This document shows, in pieces, positions 703 through 18,869 of a DNA stretch of 64,000 nucleotides. The DNA comes from Sphingomicrobium sp. XHP0239. GTDB lineage: Bacteria > Pseudomonadota > Alphaproteobacteria > Sphingomonadales > Sphingomonadaceae. The stretch covers positions 992,001-1,056,000 of the forward strand of contig NZ_CP154608.1 in the NCBI RefSeq assembly GCF_039555325.1, in the 5' to 3' direction. The notes under the pieces were generated by a model, which worked only from the letters and a program-made list of their open reading frames with translations, made no database searches and was not told where the DNA came from. Position numbers and translations under genes: made by a program. The stretch's first letter is position 1. Each line of letters starts with the position of its first letter.

Positions 703-3700
703 CCAGCCGCCGAGTAGACGAGCTGCGGTCGCTGCGGCTCGTCGCTCGACAGCGCGACATTGCTTTCGCCCAGCATCCGCTCGAGCCGATCGACGAGATC
801 GGTGTCGAGCGCGAAGTCGCGTCCGAGGAACAGTTCGGCCTGGCGCCCGTCACCCACCGGCACGGTCGCATGAACCGCTCCCCGCCCCCCGTTCGACAGC
901 TCTTCGACGAGAACCGACAGCGCCGCCCGATCTGTGATCGTCACGTCGAGCCGAAGCCGCTGATTGCTCGCCAAGGCGGAAAAGGGCGTGAAACCTCGGA
1001 CCGTGACGCGCACCTCTTCCTCGCCCTCGCGTCGATCCAGTTCCGCCGAAATGAGGCCCGCTTCGCCCGACTTGGCAGCCGCCTCGATCGCTTCCGACGC
1101 AGTCTCGTCGAAGCACATCGCGCTGAACTGGCCCGACGGGTCGGACAGCGTCGCCATCATGTAGCGATTGCCCCGCGCCGAAGTGCGCCAACGGGCTTCC
1201 TCGACCAGCGCTGCCATCTTCGCTGCCGCCCGCGATCCCGGCTGGACGTTGAGCTCGCCGAGGTCCGAATGGCGTCGCACCTGATGCGCCGCGATGAGGT
1301 GTGCGTCCGCTTCGACCGGGTGCGAAGAGAAATAGAAACCGAAGGCGTCGCGCTCCGCCGTCATCCGTTCGGCACGGTTCCAGCTCGCCTGCGGCAGGCG
1401 GATGGCCGCCATTTCGGCTTCCCCCTCGCCGCTGAACAGGGCTGCCTGCCCGCTCATCCGGTCGGACGCCGCTGACTGGGCGTGGCGCAGGATCGTTTCC
1501 GCGCCCGCATGCACCGCCGCCCGATCATCTTCGAGCGCGTCGAAAGACCCCGCCCCAGCAAGCGCTTCGAGCTGCCGCCTGTTGAGTAGCCGCGGGTCGA
1601 TGCGGCCTGCAAAATCCTCGAGGCTGGCGAATTTCCCGTTGGCCTCGCGCTCCTGCGTCAGCTGCTCCATCGCCTTTTCCCCCACGCCCTTGAGCGCGCC
1701 GAGGGCGTAACGGACCGCCAGTTCACCGTCCGGACCTTCCTGCACGTCGAATTCGGCCATCGCCTCGTTGATGGTAGGCGCCAGCACCTCGATCCCGGAG
1801 CGTTTCGCATCGTCGACGAACAGAGCGAGCTTGTCGGTCAGATTGCTGTCGTAGGTCATCGATGCGGCATAGAATTCGGCCGGATGATGCACTTTCAGCC
1901 ACGCGGTGTGATAGGCGACGAGCGCATAGGCCGCGGCGTGCGACTTGTTGAAGCCGTAGCCCGCGAACTTGTCGATCAGGTCGAACAGTTCGTTGGCCTT
2001 GGCCGGCGCAATGTCGTTTGCGGCCGCGCCTTCGACGAACCGCTTGCGCTGCTTGTCCATCTCCGCCTGAATCTTCTTGCCCATCGCGCGGCGGAGCAGG
2101 TCGGCTTCGCCCAGACTGTAGCCCGCCAGCACCTGCGCGGCCTTCATCACCTGTTCCTGGTAGACGAAGATGCCGTAGGTCTCCTTGAGAACGTCCTCCA
2201 GTTTCGGGTGGGGATAGGCGATCTCCTTGCGCCCGTTCTTGCGGTCCCCGAACAGCGGGATGTTGTCCATCGGGCCGGGGCGATAGAGCGAGACGAGCGC
2301 GATGATATCGCCGAAATTGGTCGGGCGAACGGCCGCCAGCGTTCGGCGCATCCCTTCCGATTCCAACTGGAAGACCCCGACCGTGTCGCCGCGCTGCAAG
2401 AGCTTGTAGACTTGGGGGTCGTCCCACTCGAGGCTGGCGTAATCGACCGTCACGCCTTTCTTGGCGCACAGCCGCGCGCCTTCCTTCAGCACCGACAGCG
2501 TCTTCAGCCCGAGAAAGTCGAACTTCACCAGGCCCGCCTGCTCGACATGCTTCATGTCGAACTGCGTCACCGGCATGTCCGATCGCGGGTCGCGATAGAG
2601 CGGGACGAGCCGATCCAGCGGACGATCCCCGATCACCACCCCCGCCGCATGGGTCGAGGAGTGGCGCGGAAGCCCTTCGAGTTTGGTGGCGAGGTCGAAC
2701 AGTCGCTTCACGTCGCTGTCGGATTTCACTTCCGCCGCCAGTTCGCTGACGCCGTTGAGCGCGCGTTTGAGGTCCCACGGATCGGTCGGATGGTTGGGCA
2801 CCAGCTTGGCGAGACGATCGACATGGCCGTAGCTCATCTGGAGGACGCGGCCCGTATCCTTGAGCACCGCGCGTGCCTTCAGCCGCCCGAACGTGATGAT
2901 CTGCGCCACCTTGTCGCGCCCGTATTTCTCCTGGACGTAGCGGATCACGCGGTCCCGCTTCGTTTCGCAGAAATCGATGTCGAAGTCGGGCATCGACACA
3001 CGCTCGGGATTGAGAAAGCGTTCGAACAGCAGGTCGAGTTCGAGCGGGTCGAGATCGGTGATGGTCAGTGCCCATGCCACCGCGCTCCCCGCGCCCGAAC
3101 CACGACCGGGACCGACGGGGATGTCCTCGTCCTTGGCCCATTGAATGAAGTCGGCGACGATCAGGAAGTAGCCGGAGAACCCCATGTTCGCGATGATCTC
3201 GAGCTCGTAATCGAGCCGTTCGCGATAGGGTGCCTTGTCATCGTCCGCCTTGTCGGCGAGGCGCTTTTCGAGTCCCGCGTGCGCGGCGCGGCGCAGCGCC
3301 TCGTCCTCGTCGTCCGACATGGTCGGCAGGATCGGGCGACGGTCGGGTGCCGCGACCGCGCATCGCCGCGCGATGGCACCCGAATTGGCAACCGCATCGG
3401 GAAGATCCGAAAACAGCATCTCGATCTGTCCGGCGTCCTTCAACCATGCCTCGGGCGAACTGGTAACGCGGTCGGGATTATCGACCTGGCTCGAACTGGC
3501 GATGCAGAGCATCGCATCGTGCGCGGCATGGAAATCGGGTGTCGAATAATGCGCTGGGTTTGTCGCGACGATAGGATAGCCTCGTGCGTCGGCCAGCGCG
3601 ATCAGGCGCTTCTCCGCTGCATTCTCGACGGGATGCCCGCGCCGGGACAGTTCGATGTAGAGCCGGTCCGGAAACAGGAGGGAGAGACGCGTTGCGAGCG

Positions 3701-8422: not shown

Positions 8423-8722
8423 TTACTGCGGGCCGACGATTTTCTCGCCTGCCTCGATCCGCTCATGCGCATCCCAGTCCGAGTATCGCACTCGAACTTC
8501 TCCATCTGGACCGAACCCCGCAGGGGATGGTCCGTGGAGCTCACGATACGATTTCAAGTGGCGCAGATGTGGCTGGTCAATCATCCTAGCTCCCTCTGGC
8601 TCTTTAGTCCATGAGTATCGAGGCACGAGGATGTCGTAAAAGATGTCGATTGGCATATCGATCGCAACGATGCGGTCCATCGCGATCGAACAGTGCTGGA
8701 CGATAAATTCTGGTTCGATCAT
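8423..8722 (-). CDS. Hypothetical protein, integrase operon
   Basis: 99 residues. Its ATG overlaps the integrase stop by 4 bases (ATGA), so it is translationally coupled to the integrase. Acidic, with N-terminal hydrophobic stretches (IVAIDMPIDIFYDILVP) but no clear membrane helix and no motif I recognise. The position, last gene of the lysogeny arm next to attL, suggests an accessory or integration-associated function, but nothing in the sequence proves it. Confidence 0.65.
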   Translation of the reverse strand: MIEPEFIVQHCSIAMDRIVAIDMPIDIFYDILVPRYSWTKEPEGARMIDQPHLRHLKSYRELHGPSPAGFGPDGEVRVRYSDWDAHERIEAGEKIVGPQ

Positions 8723-9837
8723 CCCAAAAGCTCCCTCTCGGCAGCCGCAGCGATCGCGGCGTCCTTCTCGTCATCCTTGATGAGGTGACCATAGACATCG
8801 AGCGTGGTCTGGATGCTGCTATGCCCCAACCACGTCGTCAGGCGCTTCAGGTCGACCTTCTGGGTGATCCACGCTGACGCCGCCGCATGGCGCAGTTCGT
8901 GAAAAGTATGCAGCGCCTTGCCGTCGCCCTTCACCACTCCGGCGTCGACCTGGAGCGGCCAGTATTCGCGGTTGAGCATGTTCGAGTGCAGGCGCACCCC
9001 GCCGTCGCTGTTCGGGAATAGCAGGTCGGACGGCGGCGATCGGAGCATCCATTCGCGCAGCGCCTTCACCAGCATCGGCGGGATCGGGATCGTGCGGTAG
9101 CCTGCCTTCGACTTCGGGGCGCCGATCACGCCCCACTGGTCGGCGCGCTGCGTCACGGTGCAGGTTGCGGCCTTCAGGTCGAGGCCCGACCGGGGGAAGC
9201 CGCGAAGTTCGGACGACCTCATGCCAGTGAATATCGCGGTCAGGAGCATCGGGTGATAGTCGGCATGATTCTCCGCAGCCTCGGCGATCATCGCCTTGAG
9301 GTTCGGCTTCGTCGGCACCACGACCTTGCTCTTGCCGCGCGGGGCGCGCTCGATCGTCACGTCCTTGGCGACGTTCTGCGCAACGAGGCCCCTCTCCTGC
9401 GCATCGTTGATGATCGCGACGAGCTGGCGCAGCGCCTTCGCTGCCATCGCCCGTGACCGCGAACCGAGCAGCGCATCGACATACAGCCGGACGCGCGGCT
9501 TCGTGAGGCGGGACAGCTTCTCCTCGCCTATCAGCGGTTCGATGTGCAAGCGCAGGATCTCGTCATAGGATTTCGTGGTACTGCGCTCGAGGCCGCGCAG
9601 CTTCCGCCCATCCAGCCAGAGCGCGCCGGCCACCGCAACCGTCGTGCTGGCACTGTCGGGCGTATGAATGCCCTGCCGGAGCTCATAGCCCAGCTGGTCG
9701 CGGTACGCGCTGGCATCGCCCTTCTTCGCGAATGTCTTCTGGCGCGGTGTGCCGCCAGCATCGACATATCGAAGGCGCCAGGCGGTCTTTTTCTCGCCAC
9801 AGGCGGTAGTCCATTCGCGTTTCGCTATTGTCGACAT
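8719..9837 (-). CDS. int: Tyrosine site-specific integrase
   Basis: 372 residues. An N-terminal arm-binding region (about 1-70) is followed by a SAM-like core-binding domain (about 70-165) and the catalytic domain. Catalytic residues are visible: Arg207 in TGMRSSEL, the HELRH box (His313, Arg316), His339 in LGHSS and the nucleophile Tyr349 in TLDVYGHL; a lysine near 244 fits the beta-hairpin position. It is the recombinase expected to act on the tRNA-Met att site 360 bases away. Its start overlaps the stop of the upstream regulator gene by 13 bases. Confidence 0.95.
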   Translation of the reverse strand: MSTIAKREWTTACGEKKTAWRLRYVDAGGTPRQKTFAKKGDASAYRDQLGYELRQGIHTPDSASTTVAVAGALWLDGRKLRGLERSTTKSYDEILRLHIEPLIGEEKLSRLTKPRVRLYVDALLGSRSRAMAAKALRQLVAIINDAQERGLVAQNVAKDVTIERAPRGKSKVVVPTKPNLKAMIAEAAENHADYHPMLLTAIFTGMRSSELRGFPRSGLDLKAATCTVTQRADQWGVIGAPKSKAGYRTIPIPPMLVKALREWMLRSPPSDLLFPNSDGGVRLHSNMLNREYWPLQVDAGVVKGDGKALHTFHELRHAAASAWITQKVDLKRLTTWLGHSSIQTTLDVYGHLIKDDEKDAAIAAAAERELLG

Positions 9838-14722: not shown

Positions 14723-14892
14723 GCCCGATCGATGCTGATGGTATGGTCGAACGGTTCAGAATTGGGGAAAGCCTGATGGAACAGCTTCATCGCCTCGGCG
14801 ACCGCCAAGTGCAGATCCCCGCTCCCGTGGATTTGCCACTCATGCTGAACCTGTTCCCCGTTCGACTTCGATACCGTTACCCGAATATCCAT
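14719..14892 (-). CDS. Small protein encoded opposite to the lytic operon
   Basis: 57 residues (MDIRVTVSKSNGEQVQHEWQ, then a helix with LAVAEAMKLFHQAFP, ending HTISIDRA). A canonical AGGAG lies 7 bases before the ATG, and the N-terminal beta-like plus helical composition looks like a real small domain. It is convergent with the replication operon, overlapping its last stop by 4 bases, and is the only leftward gene between the regulator and the accessory genes at 36 kb. Function unknown; it could be expressed in the lysogen. Confidence 0.6.
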   Translation of the reverse strand: MDIRVTVSKSNGEQVQHEWQIHGSGDLHLAVAEAMKLFHQAFPNSEPFDHTISIDRA

Positions 14893-15015
14893 CGCTCATC
14901 TCCTAGTTCGACTAAGCAGTCTCCTGCACCAGGATACGCCTCGCTTGCAATCGGGGTGGAATTATGCTTCAAGGCAAGTGATGTTGATAGGCAGGCTAAT
15001 AAAGTCATGCCAGAG

Positions 15016-15039
15016 AGCCCGCCACCGAGCGGGCTTTTT
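15016..15039 (+). terminator. Intrinsic terminator between early and late modules
   Basis: AGCCCGC (15016-15022), 6-base loop, GCGGGCT (15029-15035), then a run of T to 15039. It lies just before the HNH gene and separates replication from packaging genes, so it may be a point of antitermination control. Confidence 0.8.
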
Positions 15040-15060
15040 CATGCCCGGACGGGAGGCACG

Positions 15061-15357
15061 ATGGCCGAACGCATCCGAGGCAGGAAGGGCCAGGCACTGA
15101 GGCGCCGACGCCTCGCCCGCACCAACGGACTGTGTGAGGACTGCAAGGCCAAGGGAAAGATCACGGTGGCAACGATCGTCGACCACACCATTCCGCTCGC
15201 TCATGGCGGCGAGGATGTGGACGAGAACACCCGCAACCTGTGCGACCACTGCAACCAGAAGCGAACCGCCGAGCAGTTCGGACACCGGCAGACGGTAGGC
15301 ACCGACGAGGACGGATGGCCCATAGGCCGGGGGGCGGCTGACGCTTCAAGGGCTTAG
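15061..15357 (+). CDS. HNH endonuclease
   Basis: 98 residues from MAERIRGRKG with GGGAGG upstream. The longer upstream frame crosses the terminator and was rejected. It has a zinc-ligated HNH fold: Cys25/Cys28 (CEDC), the catalytic histidine in DHTIPLAHGG (His42), the Asn58 region TRNLC, and Cys61/Cys64 (CDHC). Such HNH proteins sit next to terminase genes in cos-type phages and assist end formation with the large terminase, which is consistent with its position here. Confidence 0.88.
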   Translation: MAERIRGRKGQALRRRRLARTNGLCEDCKAKGKITVATIVDHTIPLAHGGEDVDENTRNLCDHCNQKRTAEQFGHRQTVGTDEDGWPIGRGAADASRA

Positions 15358-15418: not shown

Positions 15419-15910
15419 ATGTCTCCACAGATCGAGAGCCGCCGCGTTTCCGACCTCATCCCGTATGAGCGCAACGCGCGCACCCATAGCGCGTCCCAGG
15501 TCTCACAGTTGGCGGCCTCGATCCGCGAGTTCGGCTGGACGAACCCGCTGCTGATCGACGGGAAGAACAACATCATCGCCGGACATGGCCGGATGCAGGC
15601 GGCGCTGAAGCTTGGCATCGACGAAGTGCCGGTGTTGGTCATTGATCACCTCGACGACGCGCAGCGGAAGGCACTGGGTCTGGCTGACAACAAGCTGGCG
15701 TTGAACGCGGCTTGGGACGAACAGATGCTAGCGCTCGAAGTCAGCGAACTTCAGGTGAGCGACTTCGACATGAAGCTGATCGGCTTCTCGAATGCGGAGA
15801 TCGCCGACCTATCCGCCGAGGTGCAGTTCATGCCGGCCGACGAGGGCGATCAGACCCGGCTGGACGAGAAACCGCTGAAGATGTGTCCGGCGTGCGGCCA
15901 TGAGTTCTAA
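15419..15910 (+). CDS. ParB/Srx-fold nuclease-like domain protein with CxxC tail
   Basis: 163 residues. The N-terminal half is a ParB N-terminal domain (NARTHSASQVSQLAASIREF, then the box GHGRMQAALKLG at 55-66 and the ADNKLAL segment). In many phages this domain is fused to an adenine DNA methyltransferase. Here the methyltransferase is absent and the chain ends in a short tail with a CPACGHEF motif. The stop overlaps the Mom-family gene by 11 bases, so the pair is translationally coupled and probably acts together in DNA modification. Confidence 0.82.
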   Translation: MSPQIESRRVSDLIPYERNARTHSASQVSQLAASIREFGWTNPLLIDGKNNIIAGHGRMQAALKLGIDEVPVLVIDHLDDAQRKALGLADNKLALNAAWDEQMLALEVSELQVSDFDMKLIGFSNAEIADLSAEVQFMPADEGDQTRLDEKPLKMCPACGHEF

Positions 15911-16592
15911 GCCAACGCTTCGGCTCGATTGGGCAACCAGCGAGGCGGCGCAGTACGCGTGTCGGACCTGGCACTACACAGGCAAGATGCCCAATAGCGG
16001 CGTGAAGATCGGCGTCTGGGAGGACGACAAATTCATCGGCGTGATCCTGTTCGGGGTCGGCGCTGCGAACGCGACGAACGGGAAGGCATACGGCCTTGCC
16101 CGATCACACGAGATTGCGGAACTCCAGCGGGTCGCGCTGAAGGCGGGCCATGCCTATCCCGTGTCGAAATACGTCTCGATCGCGATCCGGATGCTGAGGA
16201 AGCAATCGCCGAAACTGCGCATGCTGATATCGTTCGCCGATCCCGCGCAAGGGCACCACGGCGGGATATACCAGGCAGGCAACTGGATTTACACGGGCCG
16301 GTCGGGAAGCGACCACGCCTTTCGCGTGAAGGGGGAGGTACTTCACTGCAAGACGGTCCATTCGCGCGGCTGGAAACAACAGGTCGCATGGCTGCGCGCC
16401 AACATCGATCCGAAGGCTGAGAAGGTAGTCGGCGAAGGCAAGTACCGATACCTGATGGCGCTGGACGCCGAGATCGCCGAGCGGATCGCACCGCTGGCGA
16501 AACCCTATCCCAAGCGTGCGAAAGAACAGGCCTCCGAGCGCCCCTCGGAGCTGGGCGGTGTAACTCCGACCCGCACGCTCCAGAACACGTAG
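15900..16592 (+). CDS. mom: Mom-family DNA modification protein (adenine methylcarbamoylation)
   Basis: 230 residues. The conserved blocks WHYTGKMP (24-31), KIGVWEDDKFIGVILFG, the ELQRVALK helix and SFADPAQGHHGGIYQAGNW (111-129) match the phage Mom family as I know it. In phage Mu, Mom converts adenine to N6-carbamoylmethyl-adenine and shields phage DNA from restriction; the fold is proposed to be GNAT-like. Here it is the only DNA-modification enzyme seen in the prophage and is coupled to a ParB-like gene rather than to com. Placed just before the terminase genes, it would modify DNA before packaging. The assignment rests on remembered family motifs. Confidence 0.8.
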   Translation: MSSKPTLRLDWATSEAAQYACRTWHYTGKMPNSGVKIGVWEDDKFIGVILFGVGAANATNGKAYGLARSHEIAELQRVALKAGHAYPVSKYVSIAIRMLRKQSPKLRMLISFADPAQGHHGGIYQAGNWIYTGRSGSDHAFRVKGEVLHCKTVHSRGWKQQVAWLRANIDPKAEKVVGEGKYRYLMALDAEIAERIAPLAKPYPKRAKEQASERPSELGGVTPTRTLQNT

Positions 16593-16600
16593 GTCGCACC

Positions 16601-17047
16601 ATGACACGAGGCCGCAAGCCGAAGCCCACTCACCTGAAGGTGGTCGAGGGCAACCCGGGCCGTCGCCCGCTCAACACGAAGGAGCCGAAGCCGAAAGGTA
16701 ATCTCTACGATTGCCCCGAGCACCTGAACGCCGATCAGCGCAAGGTGTGGAAATATGCGATCGAGTGCGCGCCGCACGGCCTGCTGAAGCGTGTCGATCG
16801 CTCGGTGCTGTTGGCGTGGGTCGTGGCCGAAGACCTTCACCGACAGGCGACCGAGAAGTTGAACGAGCATTCGCTACTCATCTCGACGCCGAACGGAATG
16901 CCCGTCCAGACGCCCTACATCTCGATCATCAACAAGCAAGCGGCGATCATGGTGAAGGCTGCATCGGAGATGGGTTTCACGCCCGCGAGCCGAAGCCGCG
17001 TCGAGGTGGACGAACCCGAAGAGGGAAATGAGTTCTTCACCCGATAG
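16601..17047 (+). CDS. terS: Terminase small subunit (P27 family)
   Basis: 148 residues. N-terminal MTRGRKPKPTHLKVVEGNPG and LYDCPEHLNADQRKVWKY are typical of P27-family small terminases, which recognise the packaging site and load the large subunit. Its end overlaps the large terminase start by 20 bases. Confidence 0.92.
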   Translation: MTRGRKPKPTHLKVVEGNPGRRPLNTKEPKPKGNLYDCPEHLNADQRKVWKYAIECAPHGLLKRVDRSVLLAWVVAEDLHRQATEKLNEHSLLISTPNGMPVQTPYISIINKQAAIMVKAASEMGFTPASRSRVEVDEPEEGNEFFTR

Positions 17048-18869
17048 GGCGACCGCCTACGGCAGAAAAGTCGTCGCCGGAAAGATTACCGCAGGCCCGC
17101 ACGTCCGCAACGCCTGCCGCCGCCATCTGGACGACATCAAGACCGCGAAGAAGCGCGGGCTGCGCTGGAACAAGACACTGGCAGCGCGCGCGATCCGCTT
17201 CTTCGAGACGCAACTGAAGCTGAGCGAAGGGCAGTTCGAGGGGCAACCGTTCGAGGCGCAGCCCGCGCAGGATTTCATCATCGGATCGCTGTTCGGCTGG
17301 GAGCGTAAGAGCAGCGAACACGGCTGGGTTCGACGCTTCCGCCGCGCCTATATCGAGCAGGGAAAGGGCAACGGGAAATCGCCTCTGGCGGGAGGGATCG
17401 GCCTCTATGGTCTGATGGCCGACGGCGAGCCGGGCGCGGAAATCTACTCCGCGGGCGCGACCCGCGATCAAGCCGCGATCCTGTTTCGCGACGCGGTGAA
17501 AATGGTCGACCAGTCGCCGGAGCTCAGCAAGCGGCTGCGCAAGAGCGGCGGGCCGGGTCGAGAGTCGAACCTCGCCTATCTGCTGACCAGTTCGTTTTTC
17601 CGGCCGGTAAGTCGCGAAGCGAAGAAGACAGGCTCGGGCCCTCGCCCGCACATGGCGCTGTGCGATGAAATCCACGAGCATCCCGATCGCGGCGTCATGG
17701 AAATGCTTGAGCGGGGGTTCAAATTTCGTCGCCAGCCTCTGCTGTTGATGATCACGAACAGCGGCAGCGACCGCAATTCGGTATGCTGGGAAGAGCACGA
17801 ACACGCGGTCAAGGTCGCGGCGGGCAATCTCAACGCGCGCAGTGACGACGCAGCCTATCTCGGTGAAGTGGTGGACGACACGACGTTCTCCTATGTCTGC
17901 GCGCTCGACAAGGACGACGATCCGCTCAACGATCCGAGTTGCTGGGAGAAAGCCAACCCGCTGCTCGGTGTGACGATCACCAAAGAATATCTGGAGATGC
18001 AGGTCGCTCAGGCGAAGGCCATGCCTGGGAAGCTCAATGGCATTTTGCGCCTTCACTTCTGCACATGGACTGACGCCGAAACGGCGTGGATGACACAGGC
18101 CAATCTGGCGCCCGCACTCGTCGACTTCGAACCGGTGGACGATCACGCGGGTGCGCCAGTCTTTATTGGTGCCGACCTTAGCCAGACGAAGGACATCACT
18201 GCCCTTGGTTACTGCGTGCAGACGGGCGCGGTTGAGGACGGCGAGCACGCAGGAAAGCCGATTTACGATGCGTGGGTTCAGGCGTGGACGCCCGGCGATA
18301 CGATTGCCGATCGCGCACTTGCTGACAAGCAACCCTACGAGGTGTGGGTCAAGCAGGGTCATTTGAACGCGCCGAAGGGAAAGAGCATCAATTACCGCCA
18401 CGTCGCGCAAGCGATCGCCGAGGCGGAACACGACTACGATATCCGCTGCCTCGCCTACGATCGCTACGCGTTCAGCCGAATGCTCGAACCGGAGATGCAG
18501 GAGCTGGGGCTGAGCGTCGAATGCGTCGAGCATCCGCAGGGCGGGACGAAGAAGGGTAAGCCGACCGAGGCCATGAAGGCCGCGGCGAAGAAGGCAGGAC
18601 GCGAACCCGAGGGCCTGTGGATGCCCATGAGCGTCCGGCAGGTCGAGACGCTGCTGCTGGAAGGGCGGCTGCGCATCCAGCGCAATCCCGTGACCGTGAG
18701 CGCGATGATGAGCGCCGTCACCGACGAGGACCGCTGGGGAAACTATTGGCTCGCGAAAGAGCGATCCACGAACAAGATCGACGCCGCCGTCGCTCTCTGC
18801 ATGGCGGTGGGGGCAGCCTGCGCATTCGAGAGCGCAAAGCCGAAGAAATATCAGATCCTCGTCGTCTGA
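17028..18869 (+). CDS. terL: Terminase large subunit
   Basis: 613 residues. ATPase domain with Walker A QGKGNGKS (111-118) and Walker B MALCDEIHEH (about 209-218). A C-terminal RNase H-like nuclease domain has the expected acidic positions, including GADLSQTKDITALGY and LAYDRYAFSRML. It drives ATP-dependent packaging into the prohead. With the adjacent HNH nuclease and P27 small subunit this resembles HK97-like cos packaging. Confidence 0.93.
   Translation: MSSSPDRATAYGRKVVAGKITAGPHVRNACRRHLDDIKTAKKRGLRWNKTLAARAIRFFETQLKLSEGQFEGQPFEAQPAQDFIIGSLFGWERKSSEHGWVRRFRRAYIEQGKGNGKSPLAGGIGLYGLMADGEPGAEIYSAGATRDQAAILFRDAVKMVDQSPELSKRLRKSGGPGRESNLAYLLTSSFFRPVSREAKKTGSGPRPHMALCDEIHEHPDRGVMEMLERGFKFRRQPLLLMITNSGSDRNSVCWEEHEHAVKVAAGNLNARSDDAAYLGEVVDDTTFSYVCALDKDDDPLNDPSCWEKANPLLGVTITKEYLEMQVAQAKAMPGKLNGILRLHFCTWTDAETAWMTQANLAPALVDFEPVDDHAGAPVFIGADLSQTKDITALGYCVQTGAVEDGEHAGKPIYDAWVQAWTPGDTIADRALADKQPYEVWVKQGHLNAPKGKSINYRHVAQAIAEAEHDYDIRCLAYDRYAFSRMLEPEMQELGLSVECVEHPQGGTKKGKPTEAMKAAAKKAGREPEGLWMPMSVRQVETLLLEGRLRIQRNPVTVSAMMSAVTDEDRWGNYWLAKERSTNKIDAAVALCMAVGAACAFESAKPKKYQILVV

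Follow-up and report, generated by a model that had tools for sequence, protein, structure and literature searches.

Within the 64,000-nucleotide stretch of the Sphingomicrobium sp. XHP0239 genome analysed here (the window), a gene for a ParB/Srx-fold protein runs directly into a mom gene, and the pair, which presumably hides phage DNA from bacterial defences, sits between an HNH endonuclease gene and two terminase genes (Table 1). The two reading frames share 11 bp (15900-15910), exactly as in the initial annotation, which had described a ParB/Srx protein overlapping a Mom-family gene by 11 bases and had placed both open reading frames correctly. The profile searches that it had proposed recover both families: ParB matches Pfam ParB_N (PF02195, E 2.5e-07, 31.1 bits with a cut-off of 26.3) and phrog_620 of PHROGs (ParB-like, 9.1e-60), and Mom matches PF25680 (E 4.6e-45, 154.2 bits with a cut-off of 27.1, residues 7-205 on profile positions 2-202) and phrog_1384 (Mom-like, 4.1e-51). 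That the ParB protein lacks the methyltransferase usually fused to it is borne out by its match to phrog_498, labelled 'DNA methyltransferase' (9.1e-53), which covers the ParB part only, positions 32-172 of 633. The annotated span is right for both genes but omits an RNA that lies inside them, at 16514-16582. The ParB-Mom pair is genuine and recurrent, and the interpretation first given to it is supported in part; a third part of the set, a tRNA-Gly-like RNA, was missed.

Table 1. Features of the locus, in window coordinates (R1, covariance model of the RNA element; A6, alignment of 40 elements)
Feature	Coordinates	Strand	Evidence or remark
Integrase gene, ~6.7 kb from the RNA element	8719-9837		PF00589 3.3e-18
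HNH endonuclease, upstream neighbour (context)	14743..15357	+	PF01844 1e-11
ParB/Srx-fold protein, no methyltransferase	15419..15910	+	ATG, 163 aa; Pfam PF02195
CPAC knuckle codons, ParB C-terminus, directly before the mom overlap	15884..15895	+	CxxC in 73/73 pairs
mom, Mom-family DNA modification enzyme, GNAT fold	15900..16592	+	ATG, 230 aa
tRNA-Gly-like RNA, 69 nt, within the mom 3' end	16514..16582	+	covariation; R1 79.5 bits
Acceptor stem 5' strand GCGTGCG, partner 16572-16578	16514..16520	+	7/7 pairs; helix paired in 100% of A6 cells
Anticodon hairpin, glycine anticodon GCC at 16540-16542	16532..16550	+	85.4% of A6 cells paired; 7/7 pairs changed on both sides
T arm GGCGG-TGTAACT-CCG(A)CC, bulged A at 16569	16554..16571	+	bulged A 40/40 in A6; stem 100% of cells paired
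Acceptor 3' strand CGCACGC, discriminator U73 (16579), encoded CCA (16580-16582)	16572..16582	+	N73 = T in 54/54
Terminase small subunit, downstream neighbour (context)	16601-17047	+	PF05119, PF03354, PF20441 for the terminase pair
Terminase large subunit, downstream neighbour (context)	17028-18869	+	PF05119, PF03354, PF20441 for the terminase pair

The window Mom has the fold of the solved Mom (PDB 8bv8); its folded core stops near residue 205, at a PYPK motif (base 16514) where Mu Mom ends too, and the model is disordered beyond that motif. Its residue S89 aligns with S124 of Mu Mom, and the title of PDB 8bv8 calls the S124A mutant of the latter inactive. The AlphaFold2 model of ParB (pLDDT 90.1) finds its best solved-structure match in Caulobacter ParB (7bm8, Foldseek E 6.5e-09), and the P motif (GxxR, NTP-binding) is present as GHGR at residues 55-58. 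Among 46 Mom-partner ParBs, G55 is found in all 46 and R58 in 41, with T instead of R in the other 5. We detected neither a partition-type HTH nor a C-terminal dimerisation domain; at E<=0.1, Pfam gives ParB_N alone in the 163 residues. This protein is thus of the ParB-CTPase fold, by its structure and its GxxR motif, and is not a partition ParB of the ParABS kind. Further upstream, at 15000-15042, lies a hairpin with a T run, with a weak Trp_leader match (22.7 bits, gathering 41), which is probably an intrinsic terminator ahead of the HNH gene.

ParB-fold proteins upstream of mom and of other genes

How constant is the pairing? In a first scan, for which viral contigs were searched with the window Mom and 80 loci, the best of 314 related ones, were kept, ParB is upstream of mom within ~0.6 kb in 79 loci, and in the 80th mom is 87 bp from the contig end. 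Two further scans, one from the distant Mom of Enterococcus phiEf11 (from at least 595, the best 80, which include 78 new loci) and one from the Mom of locus L161 (8 loci), gave 86 loci, 10 of which carry the same mom sequence as loci of earlier sets; ParB is upstream within 0.7 kb in 83 of these 86, while two have mom at a contig edge and one is without ParB. None of the 32 Mu-type loci, all close Mu relatives and so a single lineage, has ParB upstream. The proposal that the partner here is ParB-like rather than Com holds well beyond the window. On 25 bacterial genome contigs, ParB is upstream in 15, downstream in L161 (a ParB-like gene below the Pfam cut-off) and absent from nine, one of which is at a contig edge. 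Mom homologs number 4515 in all, and a Mom match occurs in 181 phage records, among them divergent Moms from phages of Listeria, Proteus, Salmonella and others. In the six phage records looked at, four have ParB upstream, and it is absent from Mu and JD024. Psychrobacter phage Y8A is described as having a ParB gene ahead of the terminase and its Mom gene far away (PMC10434257). When 104 ParB-Mom pairs are reduced to 73 that are distinct by Mom sequence, 62 overlap or abut and 11 are spaced by 127 to 606 nt, and every one of the 73 ParBs has a CxxC within its last 45 aa. The ParB-Mom pairing is the rule in this Mom branch, beyond chance.

Several variants of the arrangement were seen. Four loci from Actinobacteria (L149, L151, L153, L156) have a Mom of the same branch, no ParB and no match to the RNA model R1. 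Tandem Mom genes, two behind a single ParB, occur in three loci (L051, L057, L193), and in Arthrobacter phage Martha a 73-aa gene of the uncharacterised family phrog_9461 (2792-3013) lies between ParB and mom. One 440-aa protein cluster with four member sequences (P0122) has ParB and Mom in one chain (99% of the joined query covered, 45% identity); since its junction has no CPxC end and the fusion may reflect a frameshift, we give it little weight as evidence for a complex.

Mom is not the only neighbor of this ParB. At L097 (3624-4849), a ParB with a CPxC end overlaps a transglycosylase-like gene (phrog_887, queuine tRNA-ribosyltransferase, 2.6e-50), so the CPxC tail is not specific to Mom. 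Because this kind of ParB is both fused to methyltransferases (phrog_498) and overlapping with a transglycosylase gene, it seems to serve the base-modifying enzymes of phages in general as a partner. Judged by eye, a similar ParB precedes a transglycosylase-like gene in two more loci (L098, L099). A glucosyltransferase-like gene (phrog_854) follows ParB in L090, and a gene for a PAPS-reductase-like protein (phrog_2302) follows it in L091; these are possibly other DNA-modification sets.

A tRNA-Gly-like RNA in the 3' end of mom

The C-termini of close Mom relatives look unrelated (GGVTPTRTLQ and RRGSTDLHAP, for example), and they are a single DNA sequence read in different frames: when the DNA past the PYPK codons is aligned, a conserved element ending in CGCTCCA emerges. 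In the window, it starts in the last codon of the PYPK motif and has no clear D arm. Our first reading of this conserved DNA, as a cos or packaging site, was dropped because of compensatory changes in what proved to be acceptor, anticodon and T helices. Standard searches pass over the element; between 15000 and 18000, Rfam RF00005 gives no match at E<=1 and ARAGORN no tRNA, and the thermodynamic fold of 16517-16585 (the first three bases missing) is no better than that of shuffles (z -0.21).

The evidence for the RNA lies in its pairing. In an anchored test, GCG and CGCTCCA were fixed by sequence only in 108 mom tails that differ in their first 100 nt; 55 tails were anchored, and none of the 25 Mu-type tails among the 108 was. 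The four bases inside each anchor are complementary, G-U allowed, in 22 of 23 distinct combinations (shuffled mean 2.7, maximum 10 in 10,000), and the one exception, L014, has its anchor two bases early. With only CCA anchored, a fully paired 7-bp stem appears in 54 of 74 ParB-Mom tails, with 21 different stems, and all 54 begin GCG and have T at position 73, neither feature having been imposed. The same search gives such a stem in 25 of 1480 shuffled tails, in 3 of 73 stretches of DNA 300-500 nt further on, in none of 18 Mu-type tails and in one of nine tails of Moms without ParB. Alignment A6 comprises 40 elements of 67 to 70 nt, the longer forms being excluded because MAFFT misplaced their acceptor strand. 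Of its cells, 94.7% pair, and 14 of its 19 pairs are changed on both sides (four variable acceptor pairs, all seven anticodon-stem pairs and three of five T-stem pairs), a number reached by 3 of 500 shuffles; in the anticodon stem, the two outer pairs do not form in 20 and 13, respectively, of the 40 sequences. Covariation is 0.581 versus 0.162 in shuffles, none of 500 of which reach the score, and 0.064 to 0.114 with partners slid; kinship among the sequences may inflate such scores, and the stem variation of the anchored test is independent of them. RNAalifold, unprompted, returns the same helices minus one outer anticodon-stem pair and adds two pairs that join the D region to the variable region. 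Additionally, the mom reading frame crosses the T arm in frame 0 in 59, in frame 1 in 19 and in frame 2 in 10 of 88 loci, and its stop falls inside the element in 14 of the 88; this use of all three frames speaks for selection on the RNA and not on the peptide.

Where does the element occur? On the whole 2.42 Mb host genome, the window element is the sole strong R1 match (79.5 bits); a second, weak one (24.8 bits, L170), in which ARAGORN finds no tRNA, is taken as chance. Over 197 relatives, R1 gives two weak matches beyond the host's own genome (33.2 and 31.2 bits, one of them at L290). Among 87 sources, 24 match at E<0.01, all of them mom loci and 19 outside the training set; at this threshold there is no match in 19 Mu-type or distant Mom sources or in 24 sources that have ParB and no Mom. 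In L157, which is among the 24 matching loci, the match lies 2.2 kb away from mom, and a weaker one (0.011) follows mom directly. The 86 Mom loci of the further scans were fetched without using the RNA, and 54 of them match at E<0.001, 53 within 124 nt of the Mom ORF end and one (L296) 661 nt beyond it. R1 gives nothing in 21 of the 22 loci with a Mom nearest to that of phiEf11, or in the three Yersinia ParB-Mom loci (L141, L142, L144). The 18 Mu-type tails of the stem search, which also lack the RNA, are all close Mu relatives and one lineage.

The search also works in the other direction. A DNA pattern made from the RNA 3' half alone is found in at least 120 viral stretches, and 118 new loci were examined, 12 of them with an element already present in the first scan. 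Among the matches listed, 110 of the 118 loci led to mom; the Mom ORF ends within 200 nt in 109, and in L221 mom is just downstream, so that the element (~4865) precedes it. An element before mom is also found in L161 (5912-7338), where the ParB-like gene comes after mom, a shuffled-module order. Six of the loci listed have the element within 384 nt of the contig end. In L206 (element ~215), the ParB frame runs straight into the element with no mom between, and in L252 (element ~860) there is no recognised mom and the adjoining gene is, by eye, cytosine methyltransferase-like. For the 109 loci listed, ParB is just upstream in 95, mom is at a contig edge in 11, and ParB is further off in three (L181, L193, L238). 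The 98 distinct elements of this set have a fully paired acceptor in 93 cases, with 49 different stems, the CGC side being fixed by the pattern itself, and where a perfect hairpin is chosen by pairing alone, CC stands at 35-36 in 54 of 58. A plain enrichment of tRNAs near mom was tried as well and given up; ARAGORN on 162 sequences returned 10 tRNAs, only two of them tRNA-Gly, as it is blind to the reduced form. Judging from these alignments and searches, we are nearly certain that the RNA is real and bound to mom.

A glycine donor for Mom?

Bacterial GlyRS recognizes U73, G1-C72, C2-G71, G3-C70, C35 and C36 (PMC9976931), and the window element carries this whole identity set. The host has three tRNA-Gly genes (CCC, GCC, TCC), all beginning GCG and, in the two where the 3' end was seen, ending CGC-T-CCA; it also has the GlyRS alpha-chain family, matched likewise in E. 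coli. Elongator tRNAs have U33, to our knowledge universally, together with a T54 U55 C56 loop and an unbroken T stem. Of 119 elements, 31 have T at position 33, and the D arm, where there is one, is short. In A6, positions 32 and 38 form a pair in 33 of 34 sequences, which leaves an anticodon loop of five bases, and 39 of 40 sequences carry G at T-loop position 55; the window element itself has C33, a TGTAACT T loop and a bulged A in the T stem. By these features it is not an elongator tRNA, nor is it a tRNA by the gathering score and D-arm cloverleaf of Rfam. More canonical forms do exist. Among eight longer-form loci, L150 alone matched Rfam tRNA (29.2 bits, gathering 29); ARAGORN finds a tRNA-Gly at the mom locus L293; and one is annotated at the mom locus of Salinibacter phage B2_17. 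Arthrobacter phage Martha (L005) has a full cloverleaf with TCC, parsed by hand and without an Rfam match, and Microbacterium phage Bush has a tRNA-Gly just past mom on the opposite strand. Two further loci (L368, L370) have at the mom end an ARAGORN tRNA to which no amino acid is assigned. All this looks like a series from ordinary tRNA-Gly down to the reduced form, in which the RNA appears to have been cut down to the features that GlyRS reads while those of translation were lost. With GlyRS features kept and translation needs lost, the RNA would work for Mom rather than for the ribosome; a molecule that donates glycine outside translation would need just this, a glycine identity with no ability to decode.

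The sequences show the two proteins with their folds and the coupling of their genes, as well as the RNA, how it pairs and that it is bound to mom. On this basis we consider it reasonably probable that the locus encodes a three-part DNA-modification module, in which a ParB-fold protein and Mom are joined by a phage-encoded tRNA-Gly-like RNA that the host charges and that acts as glycine donor. The working that we infer would begin with release of the RNA from the mom transcript and its charging with glycine by the host glycyl-tRNA synthetase. Mom, a GNAT-fold transferase, would then move the glycyl group onto N6 of adenine in phage DNA, and in the N6-glycyl adduct the glycine nitrogen would attack C6, an intramolecular rearrangement leading to the glycinamide-adenine known from Mu. 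ParB, whose gene overlaps the start of mom and is translated just ahead of it, would bind nucleotide as a subunit and either load the modifier on DNA or control it, the role described for DpdB towards DpdA. In ParB-Mom loci without the RNA, and for Mu Mom, host Gly-tRNA would have to serve as donor.

How plausible is Gly-tRNA as the source of the group that Mom transfers? We think it fairly probable. The modified base of Mu is a purinyl glycinamide, according to the title of Swinton et al. 1983, and a GNAT toxin, TacT, acts on Gly-tRNAGly via U73 and G71 (PMC9976931). The literature passages covered contain no proven donor of Mom's group; glycyl-CoA has been proposed (PMC7824862). Counting against a Gly-tRNA donor, the fold of Mom is like that of GNATs that use CoA, and Mu Mom works though the Mu-type tails examined are without the RNA. 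The glycinamide has been known since 1983, and a tRNA-Gly locked to mom in many phages now points to Gly-tRNA as its origin. With similar, moderate confidence we suggest that Mom enzymes use a glycyl-tRNA donor, that this branch carries a dedicated non-decoding mini-tRNA-Gly, and that the ParB-fold NTPase is an exchangeable DNA-loading partner of Mom, methyltransferases and transglycosylases. If true, this would be an aminoacyl-tRNA-dependent DNA base modification, and tRNAs would feed DNA marks as they do cell walls and lipids. For the ParB-fold protein, we see an even chance that it is an NTP-dependent partner of the modifier; short phage ParB proteins would thereby gain a partner and a function open to testing.

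Other explanations deserve consideration. The RNA might be genuine and act in cis, as a GlyRS- or RNase P-binding structure that tunes the expression of mom or the terminase genes and would parallel the structure under Com control in Mu, with Mom using another donor such as glycyl-CoA. It does sit within the mom message, Mu mom is under Com RNA control (PMC6483171), and the glycyl-CoA donor is the one in print; however, the element, which is at the mom 3' end in most loci, stands ahead of mom in L161 and L221, and a regulator has no obvious need for an encoded CCA and a full glycine identity set, which leads us to regard a cis role as unlikely. Could it instead be an ordinary extra tRNA-Gly that aids phage translation and lies beside mom by accident? 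Phages often carry tRNAs, and the more canonical tRNA-Gly at L150, L293 and L005 would suit this idea, but the glycine-type anticodon is accompanied by a variable position 33, an altered T arm and a D arm that is short or absent, the RNA is bound to mom, and the host already has its three tRNA-Gly genes; we find the idea very improbable. We give hardly any credence to the idea that the conserved stretch is a cos, pac or attachment site in the DNA that links mom to the terminase genes. The element is immediately ahead of terS in the window, but compensatory changes in all three helices are unexpected for a DNA site, the element precedes mom in the same two loci, and the integrase gene is ~6.7 kb off.

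It is possible, if somewhat doubtful, that ParB stands outside the modifying complex, as a translational or transcriptional controller replacing Com or as a nuclease against unmodified DNA. Com acts as a zinc finger by which the mom mRNA is opened, and the end of ParB that directly precedes the mom start invariably carries a CPxC, a tail that may be put to a Com-like use; some ParB/Srx proteins are described as able to nick, and DndB as having a regulatory role (PMC12839542, PMC10853773). Against such a role, ParB has one CxxC versus Com's four cysteines, and the same ParB kind occurs in fusions with methyltransferases and in overlap with a transglycosylase gene, in favour of a general partner for enzymes that modify bases.

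Comparison with known systems

For the pairing of ParB with a base-modifying enzyme, DpdB with DpdA appears to us the nearest described case, although DpdB belongs to what we take to be a different branch of the ParB superfamily. In Dpd, the base-modifying DpdA has the ParB-like ATPase DpdB, and the system is described as one of DNA insertion; unlike Mom, it uses transglycosylase chemistry on guanine, and no tRNA is mentioned in the portions of that article that bear on it (PMC12839542). Short single-domain phage proteins of the ParB-CTPase fold, and the same fold fused to methyltransferases, have been described by Kaljevic et al. 2025 (PMC12704722), who report that the GxxR motif is required for NTP binding and that one bacterial acetyltransferase fusion binds GTP. 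In the main text of that article, Mom has 0 occurrences, and the sections bearing on the short phage ParBs give no partner for them (PMC12704722).

The RNA has a counterpart in the non-proteinogenic tRNAGly of Staphylococcus aureus. We know of no tie between the genes for these tRNAs and a transferase gene. They too have an altered T stem and altered positions 18-19, and they are thought to escape EF-Tu and to give their glycine to FemXAB, a non-ribosomal use; the acceptor is the cell wall, however, and not DNA (PMC4052509).

The com-mom operon of Mu resembles the window locus in having a Mom of the same family and fold (PDB 8bv8) behind a small overlapping gene. It differs in that Mu has Com upstream where the window has a ParB-like protein, so that the window pair is not a com-mom operon; Mu Mom ends where the window RNA begins, and Mu-type loci have neither ParB (0 of 32) nor the RNA (0 of 18 tails).

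The three parts have been sighted together before, in the ssrA islands of Dehalococcoides, where McMurdie et al. 2011 describe, as conserved across 16 modules, a gene with a ParB domain, a homolog of Mom and, lying inside mom, a tRNA-Gly-like locus of 76 bp, and mention one ocean fosmid with a putative tRNA in its mom (PMC3146451). The likeness, drawn by description only, extends to all three parts, whereas the Dehalococcoides tRNA is in the first 150 bp of mom and the phage RNA is mostly at the 3' end and shorter. The passages concerned present the tRNA-Gly-like locus as a primer target and do not tie it to Mom chemistry (PMC3146451). Elsewhere in the literature searched, which included few subscription papers and so leaves room for an earlier publication, we found no report of Mom and a tRNA together. 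What we believe to be new beyond this earlier work is the occurrence of the set on many phage contigs, the reduced form of the RNA, its covariation and the functional link that is proposed here.
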